Positions 58,071-64,000 of a stretch of DNA of 64,000 nucleotides are shown here, in pieces. The stretch covers positions 1-64,000 of the forward strand of contig NZ_CANLDD010000016.1 in NCBI RefSeq assembly GCF_947489355.1, in the 5' to 3' direction. The DNA comes from an uncultured Microbulbifer sp. (GTDB lineage Bacteria > Pseudomonadota > Gammaproteobacteria > Pseudomonadales > Cellvibrionaceae). The translations under genes and the position numbers were made by a program. Each line of letters starts with the position of its first letter. Within the stretch, counting starts at the first letter, position 1. The notes under the pieces are model-generated. The model searched no databases. It was not told the origin of the DNA and worked only from the letters and a program-made list of their open reading frames with translations.

Positions 58071-58247
58071 ATGAGCAACCGCACTCTGTTAATCCTGCTC
58101 GTGCTGGTGGGCTATGTGTTTTCCCCCACCATTTTTACCTGGATGATCAACCCCTTCGGAGCTTGGTACCGGCCCTTTATCCTCTGGTTTGTCCTAATCC
58201 TGCTGGCGATTTTTATCCAGTGGAGGCGCAAGTCGAATGAGCTTTGA
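58071..58247 (+). CDS. Small membrane protein CbrX-like, coupled to cbrA
   Basis: A 58-codon frame (MSNRTLLILLVLVGYVFS...) with two hydrophobic helices around MINPFGAWYRP, ending WRRKSNEL. It runs from an ATG at 58071 and its stop is 11 bases inside cbrA. In Pseudomonas a similarly placed small protein, CbrX, is translationally coupled to CbrA. This matches in size, position and two-helix character, so I call it CbrX-like by context rather than sequence identity. Confidence 0.75.
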   Translation: MSNRTLLILLVLVGYVFSPTIFTWMINPFGAWYRPFILWFVLILLAIFIQWRRKSNEL

Positions 58248-61197
58248 GATAGCCCATATCGCTTTTGTGGGTGTCGCCTATATCGCCATCCTGTTCTTTG
58301 TCGCCTTCGCCGCGTCCAAGGGCTGGATGCCGTCGCGCTGGATGCGCCACCCTGTGGTATACGTGCTCTCCCTGGGGGTCTCCCTATCCGCCTGGACCTT
58401 CTACGGCATTGTCGATTTAGCCTGGCAATACGGCTACGGCGTGCTGGCCTACTACCTGGGCACCGGCGCCATGTTCCTGTTCGCCCCGGTGGCCCTGGAA
58501 CCCCTGGCGCGACTGGCCCAACGTTACCAGCTGTACTCTCCCGCGGACCTGCTGGTATTTCGCTACCACAGTCGCCAGGCGGGCATCCTCACCACACTGT
58601 TTATGCTGTTGGCTCTGATGCCCCTGGTGGCCCTGCAGATCCAGGCGGTGTCGGAAACCCTGGCACTGCTGTCCCATGACAGCGCTACCGTACTGGCACT
58701 GCCGGACAGCGACGTGTCCAGCAAAAACCTGATCGCCTTCCTTTACTGTGTATTACTCGCAGTGTTCACCAGTATGTACGGTGCCACCCGCGAGCGCGGT
58801 GAGGGGCTGGCCAGTGCCATGGCACTGGAATCCCTGGTTAAGCTGGTTGCCCTTACCTCCGTTGGGGGCTATGCGGTGTTCGGTGTATTCGGCGGCTTCT
58901 CCGGCCTCGACCAGTGGTTGCTGGAAAACAGTGATATGCAGCAGCGGCTCTACACCCCCATCGAACAAGGCTCCTCGCACACGCTGCTGCTGGTATTTAT
59001 TGCCACGGCTGTGGCCATGCCGCACATCTTCTATCTGAGTGTCGCCGAGCGCCCAACAAGGCAGGCTCTGCGCACTGCCAGCTGGGGCTTCCCGCTGTTT
59101 TTGCTGCTGATGGCACTGCCGATCTTCCCAATCATGTGGGCGGGCTTTGCCCTGGGCGTGGCCGAGCCCGTACAGTATTTCTCCCTGGCGGTACCCCGCA
59201 CCAGCGGCTCCGCACTGCTCACCGCGCTCGCGTTTATCGGCGGTCTTTCCGCCGCCACCGGCGCACTGATCATGATCACCCTGGCACTCTCCACCATGGT
59301 GATGAACCACTGGCTGCTGCCGGGCACCCGCTGGCATTCCGAAGACAATATGTACCGGCAACTGGTGTGGCTGCGCCGCACCCTGATTGCCGCGTTATTC
59401 GTTGCCGGCTTTGCTTTTTACCTGCTGCTGAACAATCGATTGTCCCTGTCGGATCTGGCCCTGCTGGCGTTTATCGGTTCCCTGCAGTTCCTGCCGGGTA
59501 TCTTTGCGGTTATCCACTGGCCGAGGGGCAATCGCCGCGGGTTTATTGGCGGTCTGCTCGCGGGCATGCTGATTTGGGGCTGCGGCCTGATGCTGCCGTC
59601 GATCCTCGACCTGAATGGTATCACCCTGCCCGGCACGTCAATACGAATGCCTCTGGGGATGTCTATATGGACCCAGATCACCACCCTGTCACTGGGTGCC
59701 AACATACTGCTGTTCGTCTGCCTGTCACTGTTTACCCGCACCGGCAGCCTGGAGCAGTACGCCGCCGACCTGTGCAGCGATGACACCATCGCCCAGGCCC
59801 TGCGCCTGGGGCTGGACGTGGAGTCCGCCACGGACTTCCGCCTGCGCCTGGCGGAAAGCCTGGGCGCAGCCACCGCCAGCCTGGAGGTCAAACGCGCCCT
59901 CAACCAACTCAACCTGCCGGACGATGAGCGGCGTCCCTACGCCCTGCGCCAGTTGCGCAATCGGCTGGAAGCGAACCTCTCAGGGCTGCTCGGGCGGGTG
60001 CTGGCCGGGCAGATTATCGACCGCCACTTCCCCTTCAAAAACAGTGATCAACCGGCCAATAAGGATATTCACCTGATCGAGACGCGCCTGGGGCGCTACA
60101 AACACCAACTCACCGGACTCGCTGCAGAACTCAACAATCTGCGCCTGTACCACCGCCAGATGCTCGAAGAATTGCCCATGGCTGCCTGCTCACTCGGTCG
60201 CGACGGCGAGATATTGCTGTGGAACTACGCCATGCAGGATCTCACCGGCATCACCGCCAGCGGAGTGGTCGGCTCCAAACTGGATTACCTGACCGAACCC
60301 TGGCGCGGTCTGTTGACAGAGTTCGCCCAGTCCGCCAATGCCAGTCGCTTCAAGCAGCAGGTCAACCTGGGAGGCATCAGCCACTGGCTCAATCTGCACA
60401 AGACCCGGCAGAAGCGCGACCGCAACAACCGCACCCACAACGAGCGCGGTGATGCCCAGATGCTGTTGTTGGAAGATATTACCGAGACACAGGTTCTGGA
60501 GCAGGAGCTGATGCACAGCGAACGCCTCGCCTCGGTCGGCCGTCTTGCCGCGGGTGTCGCCCACGAGGTGGGCAATCCGGTCACCGGTATCGCCTGCCTG
60601 GCACAGAATCTCCAGTTCGACTGCGACAATCCGGAGGTCCTGGAGACCGCCGACCAGATTCTCAGCCAGACCCAGCGCATCAGCCGTATTGTGCACTCAC
60701 TGGTCAACTTCTCCCACAGCGGTAGCCAGGAGAGTGAACGGGCACCGGTGGATCTGTACGCCTGTGTGCAGGAGGCGGTACAGCTGTTGTCGCTGCAGCG
60801 GGACAAGACTGAGGTACGCTTCGATAACACAGTGCCAGAAGACCTGATTGCTCCCGGCGACAACCAGCGCCTAATCCAGGTATTTATCAACCTGCTCAGC
60901 AACGCGCGTGACGCCAGCCCCGACGGAGGCCATATCCGCATTGAAGGCCATATCTGCAAGGGTAGCGCCTGTGTTTCGGTTACCGATGACGGCCCGGGGA
61001 TCTCCCCAAAGCACCGGGAGCGCATCCTCGAGCCCTTCTTCACCACCAAGGAGCCCGGAGAGGGCACCGGGCTGGGATTGGCGATGGTGTACAGCATTAT
61101 CGAGGAACATGGTGGACAGTTGGAACTGGTCAGTCCGGCCAACAAGGAAAGTGGACGCGGTGCAAAATTTATCGTGCAGCTACCGCTGGCTGGGTAA
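58237..61197 (+). CDS. cbrA: Sensor histidine kinase CbrA, transporter-fused
   Basis: 986 residues. The first ~500 form an SSS-type sodium/solute symporter domain with 12-13 helices (WTFYGIVDLAWQYGYG, SAWT...). A linker and PAS domain follow (MAACSLGRDGEILLWNYAMQ). The HisKA helix has the phospho-His in RLAAGVAHEVGNPVTGI. The ATPase domain shows INLLSNARDA (N box), DDGPGIS (G1) and GTGLGLAMVYSI (G2). In Pseudomonas CbrA senses carbon/nitrogen state, can take up histidine, and activates CbrB. Its start lies inside the small upstream gene. Confidence 0.93.
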   Translation: MSFEIAHIAFVGVAYIAILFFVAFAASKGWMPSRWMRHPVVYVLSLGVSLSAWTFYGIVDLAWQYGYGVLAYYLGTGAMFLFAPVALEPLARLAQRYQLYSPADLLVFRYHSRQAGILTTLFMLLALMPLVALQIQAVSETLALLSHDSATVLALPDSDVSSKNLIAFLYCVLLAVFTSMYGATRERGEGLASAMALESLVKLVALTSVGGYAVFGVFGGFSGLDQWLLENSDMQQRLYTPIEQGSSHTLLLVFIATAVAMPHIFYLSVAERPTRQALRTASWGFPLFLLLMALPIFPIMWAGFALGVAEPVQYFSLAVPRTSGSALLTALAFIGGLSAATGALIMITLALSTMVMNHWLLPGTRWHSEDNMYRQLVWLRRTLIAALFVAGFAFYLLLNNRLSLSDLALLAFIGSLQFLPGIFAVIHWPRGNRRGFIGGLLAGMLIWGCGLMLPSILDLNGITLPGTSIRMPLGMSIWTQITTLSLGANILLFVCLSLFTRTGSLEQYAADLCSDDTIAQALRLGLDVESATDFRLRLAESLGAATASLEVKRALNQLNLPDDERRPYALRQLRNRLEANLSGLLGRVLAGQIIDRHFPFKNSDQPANKDIHLIETRLGRYKHQLTGLAAELNNLRLYHRQMLEELPMAACSLGRDGEILLWNYAMQDLTGITASGVVGSKLDYLTEPWRGLLTEFAQSANASRFKQQVNLGGISHWLNLHKTRQKRDRNNRTHNERGDAQMLLLEDITETQVLEQELMHSERLASVGRLAAGVAHEVGNPVTGIACLAQNLQFDCDNPEVLETADQILSQTQRISRIVHSLVNFSHSGSQESERAPVDLYACVQEAVQLLSLQRDKTEVRFDNTVPEDLIAPGDNQRLIQVFINLLSNARDASPDGGHIRIEGHICKGSACVSVTDDGPGISPKHRERILEPFFTTKEPGEGTGLGLAMVYSIIEEHGGQLELVSPANKESGRGAKFIVQLPLAG

Positions 61198-61323: not shown

Positions 61324-62715
61324 ATGAGCCACATCCTGATCGTCGAAGATGAAGCCATTATTCGAACGGCGCTGCGCAAGCTTCTGGAGCGGCACCGCTA
61401 CAAGGTCAGTGAGGCGGGTTCCGTTCGCGAAGCACTCAGTAAGTATCGCCTGAACACGGTGGACCTGATCATCTCGGACCTGCGCCTCCCCGGTGCACCC
61501 GGCACCGATTTACTCAAACCCGCCGGCGATATCCCCGTGCTGATCATGACCAGCTACGCCAGCCTCAGGTCCGCCGTGGACTCGATGCGTATGGGGGCTG
61601 CGGACTACATCGCCAAGCCCTTCGATCACGATGAGATGATCACCACCATACGCCGGGTAGTCGGCAAAGCTGAGCAGAGCCGCATCCAGGCCCCGGCGGA
61701 GAAAGAGAGTACCGGCTCCATCGCCGGAATGATCGGTAACAGCCGGATAATGCGCGAGCTGTATGGCCGCATCCACAAAGTGGCACCTACCGATGCCACA
61801 GTACTGGTACACGGTGAAACGGGTACCGGTAAGGAGCTGGTTGCCCGCGCCATCCACGAGGAGAGTCACCGTGTCGGCAAACCACTGATATCGGTGAACT
61901 GTGCCGCCATCCCCGAGACCCTGATCGAATCGGAACTGTTCGGTTATGAAAAAGGCGCTTTTACCGGGGCACAGAGCGCCCGCGAAGGGCTGGTAGCTGC
62001 CGCAGATGGCGGCACCTTATTCCTCGATGAAATCGGCGAACTCCCCCTGGAGGCCCAGGCGCGCCTGCTGCGAGTGATTCAGGAGGGCGAAGTGCGCCCC
62101 ATCGGCGCGATTGAATCGCGCAAGGTGAATGTGCGACTGGTAGCTGCCACGCACCGCAACCTGCGCCAGCTGGCGGCAGAACGCAAATTTCGTGAAGATC
62201 TCTACTATCGCATCAACGTGGTACAGATGACCCTCGCCCCCCTGCGGGAGCGCGGTCGGGACATTCTGGCACTGGCTGAGCACCTGCTGGAAAAATTTTG
62301 CAAAAAAATAGAGCGCCCGCTCCTGCGCCTGTCCCCTGAGGCCATCCAGGCGGTCACCACTTACGCCTGGCCCGGCAATGTGCGGGAACTGGAGAACGCG
62401 ATCCAGCGCGCGGTGATCCTCACCGACAGCAGCAGTGAAGAAATCGATCATAAAATTCTGGATATTGATCTCGACCTGGTACCCGTGGAAGAGGCCAGAA
62501 GCTCAACGCGTCCTCGCAGCTTGCATACAGACCCCCGCGAGGACCTGTCCCTGGAAGATTATTTCGCCCGCTTTGTTATCGAGCACCAGGACACCATGAG
62601 CGAAACCGAACTGGCCAAGAAATTGGGTGTCAGCCGCAAGTGCCTGTGGGAGCGGCGGCAAAAACTGGGGATTCCACGCAAGAGGACCCGCCGTAGCACC
62701 GTCGCCGAGGCCTGA
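61324..62715 (+). CDS. cbrB: Sigma-54-dependent response regulator CbrB
   Basis: 463 residues in three parts. The receiver domain has the phospho-Asp in LIISDLRLPG near residue 52 and Lys near 102 (AKPFDHDEM). The AAA+ activator domain has GETGTGKELVARAIH (Walker A), GAFTGAQ for sigma-54 contact, and LFLDEIGEL (Walker B). A Fis-type HTH ends the protein (ETELAKKLGVSRKCLWERRQKLG). It lies 126 bases after cbrA. In Pseudomonas CbrB activates crcZ from a sigma-54 promoter; a candidate promoter of that type starts 220 bases downstream. Confidence 0.95.
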   Translation: MSHILIVEDEAIIRTALRKLLERHRYKVSEAGSVREALSKYRLNTVDLIISDLRLPGAPGTDLLKPAGDIPVLIMTSYASLRSAVDSMRMGAADYIAKPFDHDEMITTIRRVVGKAEQSRIQAPAEKESTGSIAGMIGNSRIMRELYGRIHKVAPTDATVLVHGETGTGKELVARAIHEESHRVGKPLISVNCAAIPETLIESELFGYEKGAFTGAQSAREGLVAAADGGTLFLDEIGELPLEAQARLLRVIQEGEVRPIGAIESRKVNVRLVAATHRNLRQLAAERKFREDLYYRINVVQMTLAPLRERGRDILALAEHLLEKFCKKIERPLLRLSPEAIQAVTTYAWPGNVRELENAIQRAVILTDSSSEEIDHKILDIDLDLVPVEEARSSTRPRSLHTDPREDLSLEDYFARFVIEHQDTMSETELAKKLGVSRKCLWERRQKLGIPRKRTRRSTVAEA

Positions 62716-62935
62716 CCTCCCCCATCTTCTTCGGGGTTTCCTGTCTTCTCCCCGCCCGGCAGCGTCCGTACCCACCCCTACTGCCGCAGCCAACCCAAGG
62801 CTGATCGGGGCAAGTGTTACCCAACCCATCCACAAGTAACAATTGCCGCACCTTCCGTAACGCAACAAGCCAGAGAAAAGTTCCGTGAAAATATGTAAAG
62901 ATTATAACTTATTGATTTTTATAATATTTTTAAAG
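62716..62935. other. Region between cbrB and the CrcZ-like promoter
   Basis: A CCCC-ATCTTCTTC-GGGG hairpin with a TTT tail lies 16 bases after the cbrB stop and may end the cbr transcript. The rest becomes strongly A+T-rich towards the sigma-54 promoter. Upstream activator sites for CbrB would be expected here, but I could not identify a clear repeat. Confidence 0.4.
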
Positions 62936-62952
62936 TTGGCACATAAAGTGCT
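62936..62952 (+). promoter_or_regulatory. Sigma-54 promoter of the CrcZ-like RNA
   Basis: TTGGCAC (62936-62942), five bases, then GTGCT (62948-62952) keeps the invariant GG-N10-GC spacing of sigma-54 promoters. Only the -12 block (GTGCT for TTGCA) deviates. Transcription would start near 62963. The upstream gene, cbrB, encodes the cognate kind of activator. Confidence 0.75.
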
Positions 62953-62962
62953 TTATTCTTGA

Positions 62963-63358
62963 TACAAAAATTAAAAACGGCCAACAATAAAAATAAATGA
63001 CCGTTGTAAGCCCTAAAATGACTCACAATAAGCGGGCAAAAGAGAATAATAATAATGGGGCGGTCGACAATAAGAGCAATGAGAGACCAAAACCGAAAAA
63101 ACAACAATAAACAATAAGAATAAGTCCCAATCAAGAATAACAAAAAGCGCGTTGCAAACTGACTGAATTGTACCTGGGATAGGGTGTTTGCTTGACTGCA
63201 AATTGAGAGCGCAAGGAAGCCGCTACCTTCATACAGAAAATAAGAGTGATTCTCATTCGGTCGGGCAGTCACCAGTTGTTCCGAGGGTGTTCTGCCAACC
63301 GCATTTCTCACAAGAAGCGTTTTCCTCCACCTCCCTTCTATCAGCGGCTTTCCTTTAG
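62963..63358 (+). ncRNA. CrcZ-like small RNA with multiple Hfq/Crc (AAnAAnAA) motifs
   Basis: Directly after the sigma-54 promoter the plus strand is A-rich. It carries AAnAAnAA motifs in four clusters: 62983-62996, 63045-63055, 63100-63123 and 63133-63146. CrcZ of Pseudomonas has the same place (after cbrB), the same promoter type and several such motifs, and it sequesters Hfq/Crc to lift carbon catabolite repression. A 12-bp long-range stem (63213-63224 with 63343-63355) followed by CCTTT suggests a 3' end near 63358. That gives about 396 nt, close to CrcZ's roughly 400. Sequence identity was not checked; the call rests on layout and motifs. Confidence 0.7.
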
Positions 63359-64000
63359 GTACACAGTTATTCCTGTAATACCAAGCGACGTGAGCAGACT
63401 TTCATGGGGCCTTTCAAACCATGTCTCAGATCTCTTACCATTTACACGATAGTCTCGCCCGCAGAGCAGACATGTGAAGTCTTCACCGCTATGGTACCCG
63501 GGGGTAGCGAGCCCCTTCTTCATTTAACGATCCCGGTTACACCCGGCTTGAGCTGAATGCCTGCTGTTTTATCTTGCAACGACATTGCGCTGCCCGTAGG
63601 GTCAAGTTTGGATAAAAAAGAGCAATTCATAAAAGGCCTGGCAACCCCATACACAAACGCCTGGTGTGCCAGGGAAAATTATCCCGCTGGCTATGGAAGG
63701 ATTCCCGGATTCTCCAACCTGTAATAATTCTTATTTTCATTATCAAAACACCCGACATCCGCAGATTGCGGGCGCATTGTATGGGGTATGTTAGAATCGC
63801 GCCCACACATCCAGCTCGCTGGAGACAGGCGTCACTTTAGTGCCTTAATTTGTACTTCAACTCTGGCCAGCCCGGGGCTGTAGAAGCAGCAGTATCCCCA
63901 CCCCTCTGGGTCCCAGGGTGGAAAAGCATGGGCACAGAGCCTGCCCCCACTGCCGTGTGGCCAAAGCGCAGCAGGGTTTTTCCGGTCATCCACGAATGGC
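63359..64000. other. Region after the CrcZ-like RNA, no assigned gene
   Basis: In Pseudomonas pcnB follows crcZ. Here no PcnB-like start is recognisable before the window ends. A plus-strand frame from 63850 is still open at 64000 and contains an ATG at 63928 (MGTEPAPTAVWPKRSR), which might be the start of a gene cut by the edge. A 60-codon minus frame at 63341-63523 with a CLLC motif is not convincing. Hairpins occur near 63868-63880 and 63900-63920. Confidence 0.3.

Follow-up and report, generated by a model that had tools for sequence, protein, structure and literature searches.

A predicted CrcZ-type decoy RNA gene behind cbrB in Microbulbifer, with counterparts that appear to span a bacterial order

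What does the A-rich DNA between cbrB and pcnB encode in an uncultured Microbulbifer species? We addressed this question computationally, starting from a stretch of 64,000 nucleotides (the window, meaning the whole stretch analyzed) for which a preliminary description had proposed a CrcZ-like decoy RNA gene with a sigma-54 promoter downstream of cbrB. According to a 2022 review, CbrAB and the cbrA-cbrB-crcZ gene order are exclusive to Pseudomonas and Azotobacter and unique to the Pseudomonadaceae (PMC8871633), and the abstract of a second paper calls CbrAB exclusive of Pseudomonads (PMC6296734). Our search of the open-access PMC literature, with subscription papers and preprints outside its scope, returned no description of CrcZ outside Pseudomonas and Azotobacter, and the excerpted Acinetobacter literature, including PMC12802169, describes no CrcZ gene. 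The kind of RNA is already known; its range and variants are undescribed as far as we have seen in the open-access literature.

The cbrAB locus and its promoter

The genes that frame the A-rich stretch are as follows.

58237..61197, plus strand: cbrA, with an N-terminal transporter-like region, a PAS domain and a histidine kinase (Pfam PAS, HisKA, HATPase_c)
61324..62715, plus strand: cbrB, an NtrC-type response regulator with receiver and sigma-54 AAA+ domains (Pfam)
63918..64000, plus strand: first part of the frame of pcnB, for poly(A) polymerase, which runs past the window (L334:918-2375, Pfam PolyA_pol)

The N-terminal 520 residues of the cbrA product are 46-47% identical to CbrA of two loci of the Pseudomonas-type family f20 (L164 and L165), and the cbrB product is 62-63% identical to their CbrB. 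Pfam SSF/SLC5 gave no match on the cbrA product at 1e-3, and its transporter-like part is named by identity to f20 CbrA. The pair consists of a transporter-like/histidine kinase fusion followed by an NtrC-type regulator, the composition that defines CbrAB, as judged from that identity and from Pfam. The predicted RNA gene lies directly downstream of cbrAB, with pcnB on its other flank; folK (HPPK) is also found downstream on the contig, and the true start codon of pcnB is probably later than 63918. The stretch from the RNA to pcnB (63258-63917), unconserved across the genus, exceeds in length those of L010, L015 and L016, and a TGTTAGAATC element near 63790 is similar to one upstream of pcnB in relatives.

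The GG-N10-GC spacing noted earlier behind cbrB was confirmed: TTGGCAC-ATAAA-GTGCT begins 221 nt past the cbrB stop codon. Three CbrB half-sites and an IHF-like site, all missed in the preliminary description, lie upstream of it.

62815..62820, plus strand: CbrB half-site F1, TGTTAC, shared with P. putida crcZ (PMC6296734)
62836..62841, plus strand: CbrB half-site R1, GTAACA, as in P. putida crcZ (PMC6296734)
62857..62862, plus strand: CbrB half-site R2, GTAACG, preceding the sigma-54 site by 80 nt
62905..62917, minus strand: IHF-like site, WATCAANNNNTTR, named by likeness to the IHF consensus; matched exactly in 34 of the 70 loci from the family
62937..62952, plus strand: sigma-54 promoter -24/-12, TGGCACATAAAGTGCT, within TTGGCAC-ATAAA-GTGCT at 62936-62952

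The dissected crcZ promoter of P. putida has F1 TGTTAC, R1 GTAACA and R2 GTAACg together with IHF and sigma-N sites (PMC6296734), and the window promoter shows the same half-sites in the same layout and order. Half-sites F1, R1 and R2 and the sigma-54 site, at conserved spacing, make up a putative CbrB-dependent sigma-54 promoter. The pattern TGTTAC-N10-20-GTAAC-N80-110-TGGCA matched the window's own genome once, at this promoter, and its backward-read control not at all. In 15 other genomes the bare half-site/TGGCA pattern gave 19 matches versus 12 in the control, indicating that outside the own genome the A-rich tracts are needed for specificity.

Hits of the Rfam P36 sRNA (RF01679) in two f20 loci (L100:131-191 and L099:154-216) overlap CbrB half-sites between cbrB and crcZ, as read from coordinates. 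Part of the P36 family may represent the promoter and the cbrB terminator, not an sRNA.

The predicted RNA and its putative partners

The following features were assigned to the RNA.

62963..63257, plus strand: predicted crcZ-type RNA, its start placed from promoter spacing and its end where genus conservation fades
62983..62997, plus strand: (A-R-N) tract 1
63045..63056, plus strand: (A-R-N) tract 2
63069..63080, plus strand: (A-R-N) tract 3
63097..63111, plus strand: (A-R-N) tract 4
63113..63124, plus strand: (A-R-N) tract 5
63133..63147, plus strand: (A-R-N) tract 6
63158..63184, plus strand: conserved core ACTGACT...TGGGATAGGG, similar to the ACTGATT...TTGGAGAGG seen in Pseudomonas-type CrcZ
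63186..63203, plus strand: 3' hairpin GTTTGC...GCAAAT, with compensatory changes at two of seven pairs genus-wide

The predicted RNA is A-rich and about 290 nt long. The preliminary description had it run for about 400 nt, to a possible 3' stem near 63355; it probably ends near 63257, where conservation in the genus alignment fades (the later RNA alignment was cut at 63257), and the stem is unconserved in the genus. Nor did either of two terminator scans find anything near 63355; the looser one, run on the plus strand from the RNA to pcnB, returned 63500-63517 (two versions) and 63827-63845. The four A-rich clusters described earlier are there, comprising 14 occurrences of AANAANAA between 62983 and 63146. 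Both strands of the window hold 17 matches to AANAANAANAA, 9 of them within the RNA region (1.5 expected, at most 5 in 100 shuffles). Tracts of the type (A-R-N)n with n of at least 4 number six in 62965-63257, a count reached in none of 1,000 mononucleotide shuffles. No plus-strand frame at the RNA exceeds 66 codons in 30 genus loci, bearing out the earlier statement that no protein-coding frame explains the motifs.

A short core pattern, defined after inspecting the sequences, was present in 7/10 loci of f20, 2/2 of f2 and 38/66 of f1 and in none of the other families, with 3/134 for the reversed-string control. Four helices that we named were paired in 96.9% of cells in 26 genus sequences, compared with 22-38% for slid versions. 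Helix cells changed on both sides numbered 20 versus 6.3 in shuffles, and pairs with a double change 4 versus 2.3 (18 of 500 shuffles were as high), counts that are inflated by kinship among the rows and that come from the few helix pairs that vary. Further pair types in the helices were fewer than in every shuffle, and the RNAalifold covariation term was small (-0.86). Covariation gives modest backing for a conserved RNA shape.

An Rfam scan of the window region and a search of its own genome with the CrcZ model RF01675 gave no match, and 14 control genomes were likewise blank, so the genome search taken by itself is no proof of absence. As a positive control, all four f20 loci submitted scored 305-334 bits, against a gathering threshold of 95 bits; the window locus itself (L006) had no RF01675 row at E of 10 or below. 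Hits below threshold were obtained in 8 of 14 non-f20 loci, each overlapping the predicted RNA on the same strand: L121 (f34) at 73.3 bits (4e-17), L047 of the window's family at 39.4, L134 at 39, L130 at 24, L113 at 23, L036 at 21, L119 at 20 and L137 at 18 (E 0.69). The earlier reading as a CrcZ-like RNA is largely supported, the promoter having the layout of P. putida crcZ; the Rfam CrcZ model, however, finds no match in the window RNA. Membership in RF01675 was rejected on the model score, and the RNA is not filed there. Nor does the 3' domain demonstrate homology to CrcZ: a sequence model of 91 positions from 13 family 3' domains, for which RNAalifold gave no base pair, missed Pseudomonas-type CrcZ. 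It had one match in 82 sources, a displaced copy from the same family, and none in Pseudomonas-type or other families.

The preliminary description had proposed looking for crc and hfq in the genome, and both are present. Of five PF03372 matches, one is Crc (L003:1453-2220, 255 aa; best PDB match the Crc entry 4jg3, 6.2e-78), with neighboring reading frames that we read as pyrE and rph, which is the Pseudomonas gene order; L001:1492-2307 is a separate, ordinary exonuclease III (6.3e-116 to 1ako). The single Hfq keeps Y25 and K56. In P. aeruginosa Hfq, a change of Y25 stops CrcZ binding, whereas a K56A variant still binds (PMC4063720). rpoN was found as well. AANAAYAANAA placed 4-12 nt before ATG was not enriched in the own genome (37 matches versus 33 in the control). 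Among 30 such A-rich places that were fetched, three precede open reading frames of about 300-500 aa, which is no proof that they are targets.

Spread within the order and beyond

CbrB was searched for in 144 family genomes and 390 order genomes, and we collected the DNA downstream of cbrB from 70 family loci (30 from the family search, including the window's own, and 40 chosen) and from 80 loci of 31 other families, taken from the best matches listed; in total, 32 of the 47 families found in the order search are covered. A loose test asked for a sigma-54 site with at most one mismatch and, no more than 300 nt after it, four or more AANAANAA motifs. It was passed by 66/70 family and 68/80 other-family loci, that is, by 134/150 loci in 27/32 families, including three (L094, L125, L144) in which the sigma-54 site chosen is over 800 nt downstream. 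The comparison with relatives proposed earlier thus finds the A-rich motifs kept. A strict test, which required exact matches to GTAAC and, 77-83 nt further downstream, to TGGCAY-N6-TGC, together with at least four motifs, was passed by 115/150 loci, in which the distance from the R2-type half-site to the sigma-54 site is 77-82 nt, by 0/150 reverse strands and by 0/2,940 shuffles (loci with N omitted from the shuffles). In f20, all ten loci have the promoter and the A-rich cluster, and all ten have pcnB.

pcnB follows cbrB in 126/150 loci. The 24 others comprise four cut at contig ends, ten CrcZ-negative loci and ten CrcZ-positive ones, some of which perhaps lack it only because a short stretch was collected. 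Four of the 16 negatives of the loose test end with their contigs (L059, L077, L111, L148); among the remaining 12, pcnB is present in two f9 loci only. These two, L089 and L090, have, in roughly the first 400 nt behind cbrB, an entire CbrB/sigma-54 promoter and a miniature RNA with two AANAANAA motifs. In both, the two motifs are followed by a hairpin and its T-rich tail.

A pattern search for displaced copies, run on 12 of the negative genomes and three positive controls, found them in three of the 12. G008 has a copy with 28 motifs about 2.5 kb beyond cbrB, G150 has two (L349 and L353, 8 and 9 motifs) and G342 has one (L354, 4 motifs). In the f8 copies (L349, L353, L354), GTAAC lies 94 nt upstream and the -12 element is of the TTGTA type, so they would fail the strict test; none of the three f8 loci examined has an RNA behind cbrB. 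Neither an RNA behind cbrB nor a displaced copy was found for L063, L073, L087, L091, L098, L147 and L156. The joint absence of the RNA and pcnB behind cbrB would fit loss or displacement by rearrangement. By reading, L097 (f14) contains a tandem pair of CrcZ-type units, both equipped with a sigma-54 site.

A contig search for named relatives of CbrB gave at least 80 loci, with five close ones (60-72% identity) among the matches listed. The nearest of these, Gilvimarinus gilvus (72%), has the RNA promoter and 28 motifs; Pseudomonas fildesensis has one RNA promoter and 9 motifs. Dasania sp. GY-MA-18 (L226) has two units in tandem, with 9 and 6 motifs, each with its own sigma-54 site and GTAAC 78-79 nt upstream. 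No RNA was seen in the uncultured Pseudomonadaceae contig L228, and L225 ends at 415 nt.

The preliminary description foresaw that the switch would extend beyond Pseudomonas and Azotobacter, which is supported; the RNA is not confined to a Microbulbifer-like genome but is found across the order. The CbrAB/CrcZ-type system appears to be order-wide, the order in question being probably the Pseudomonadales in the GTDB sense, and this carbon-choice switch looks far older and wider than Pseudomonas.

We then considered the whole class, searching 274 genomes and fetching the best 20 CbrB-like loci that were not already covered, 19 from outside the order and one from inside (L208, f35). CbrA-like and CbrB-like genes are neighbors in all 20, the CbrA part being incomplete in L207. 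None of the 20 has an A-rich cluster (at most three motifs; L215 readable for 790 nt), and no pcnB was found in these stretches. The presence of cbrAB pairs without the RNA outside the order indicates that cbrAB looks older than the crcZ-type RNA. In L216, L220 and L222, from other orders, TGTTAC/GTAACA occurs in the first 150 nt after cbrB without an A-rich cluster; these are perhaps CbrB sites that predate the RNA.

Interpretation and comparison with known systems

The best explanation of 62716-63257 is, very probably, a CrcZ-type decoy RNA gene with its CbrB/sigma-54 promoter. The sigma-54 site, the adjacent cbrB and the presence of crc, hfq and rpoN support the decoy reading at the level of sequence. 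By analogy with Pseudomonas, exhaustion of the preferred carbon source would lead CbrA to phosphorylate CbrB, which would bind the three half-sites (62815-62862) while IHF bends the DNA. RpoN polymerase would start the RNA near 62963, and the six (A-R-N) tracts would occupy the distal face of Hfq, with Crc helping. Uptake of Hfq by the RNA would free mRNAs for less preferred substrates from Hfq/Crc repression.

Alternatively, the RNA may act on Hfq only, as a decoy or platform, with Crc uninvolved both in the window genus and ancestrally, and may serve general Hfq availability and not carbon choice. In favor of this, A-R-N tracts are motifs for the distal face of Hfq, and in P. aeruginosa it is Hfq that CrcZ titrates, with Crc reported not to bind RNA (PMC4063720). 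We nevertheless consider it unlikely: the window genome encodes a clear Crc, placed as in Pseudomonas, and Crc-type matches at E of 0.001 or below occur in 331/390 order genomes and 75/80 of the other-family genomes fetched (weak ones may be exonuclease III). The five of these 80 without one are G145, G207, G289, G349 and G406. In four f28 genomes (G207, G349, G238, G289), none of 13 PF03372 matches resembles Crc, and two of them retain the RNA, with 21 motifs in G207 (L113) and 24 in G349 (L112). These two cases would fit the titration of Hfq by CrcZ described in P. aeruginosa (PMC4063720), and a divergent Crc is possible; G170, also of f28, has a Crc match at 1.5e-61. Loss of the RNA and loss of Crc are uncoupled, the f8, f9 and f10 genomes having a Crc match.

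A second alternative, which we regard as improbable, is that the A-rich stretch is the untranslated leader of pcnB, or an AT-rich spacer with a sigma-54 promoter for pcnB. The usual position of pcnB behind the RNA speaks for it, as does possible read-through in the window genus, where a search up to 700 nt from the promoter for a perfect stem of at least 6 pairs and a T-rich tail gave 0/30 loci. The same search succeeded in 31/36 loci of other genera of the family and 40/68 of other families, the displaced copies in G008, G150 and G342 retain promoter and A-rich tracts, and motifs and hairpins are conserved in the genus, all of which argue against a pcnB leader. That the stretch is intergenic DNA that is AT-rich by chance, or a small gene on the minus strand, has next to no probability: the minus-strand frame of 130 aa (62919-63311) does not keep its length in 30 genus loci (73 to 156 codons for the longest such frame) and looks like the shadow that it was earlier taken for, and the strict composite never arose in the shuffles.

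In our view the window RNA, read as a CrcZ-type decoy, corresponds to Pseudomonas CrcZ in both position and function and descends from the common ancestor of the order, although it is not RF01675 by score. For the evolution of the system, we lean towards a CbrAB-RNA-Hfq switch ancestral to the whole order. An older cbrAB pair would have gained the RNA, and Crc would be a dispensable co-repressor, lost at least once (within f28) with a many-site RNA kept. The RNA would have shrunk to two sites in f9, become tandem in Dasania and moved in f8. If this is true, a large bacterial order has as its ground state the control of carbon choice through an Hfq decoy RNA. Natural variants with two sites to dozens, with or without Crc, allow direct tests of what Crc does, which is debated, and of how many Hfq sites are required.

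Among known RNAs, sRNA99 of Acinetobacter baumannii is Hfq-bound, has three AAN motifs and has been likened to CrcZ; it belongs to another family, and the excerpt mentions no CbrB link (PMC12802169). Pseudomonas CrcZ (RF01675) is closest: like the window RNA, it lies between cbrB and pcnB behind F1, R1 and R2, the distance from R2 to the sigma-54 site being about 80 nt, and the window core resembles its ACTGATT...TGGAGAGG. The six A-R-N tracts equal the count reported for P. aeruginosa CrcZ, whereas the window RNA, at about 290 nt, is shorter than the 407-nt CrcZ of PAO1 (PMC4063720). It also differs in having another sequence, no Rfam match, no strong terminator found and, by pattern search, a single copy in its genome. 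CrcY and CrcX of Pseudomonas and CrcY of Azotobacter are likewise A-rich decoys driven by CbrB and sigma-54, and the CrcY/CrcX paralogs lie away from cbrB; a second locus of this kind (L343) appears in the f20 genome G384. The CsrB/RsmZ decoys use GGA motifs and CsrA, not A-R-N tracts and Hfq. Directed against CsrA/RsmA, they follow the same logic, in which an RNA soaks up a translational repressor (PMC4063720).
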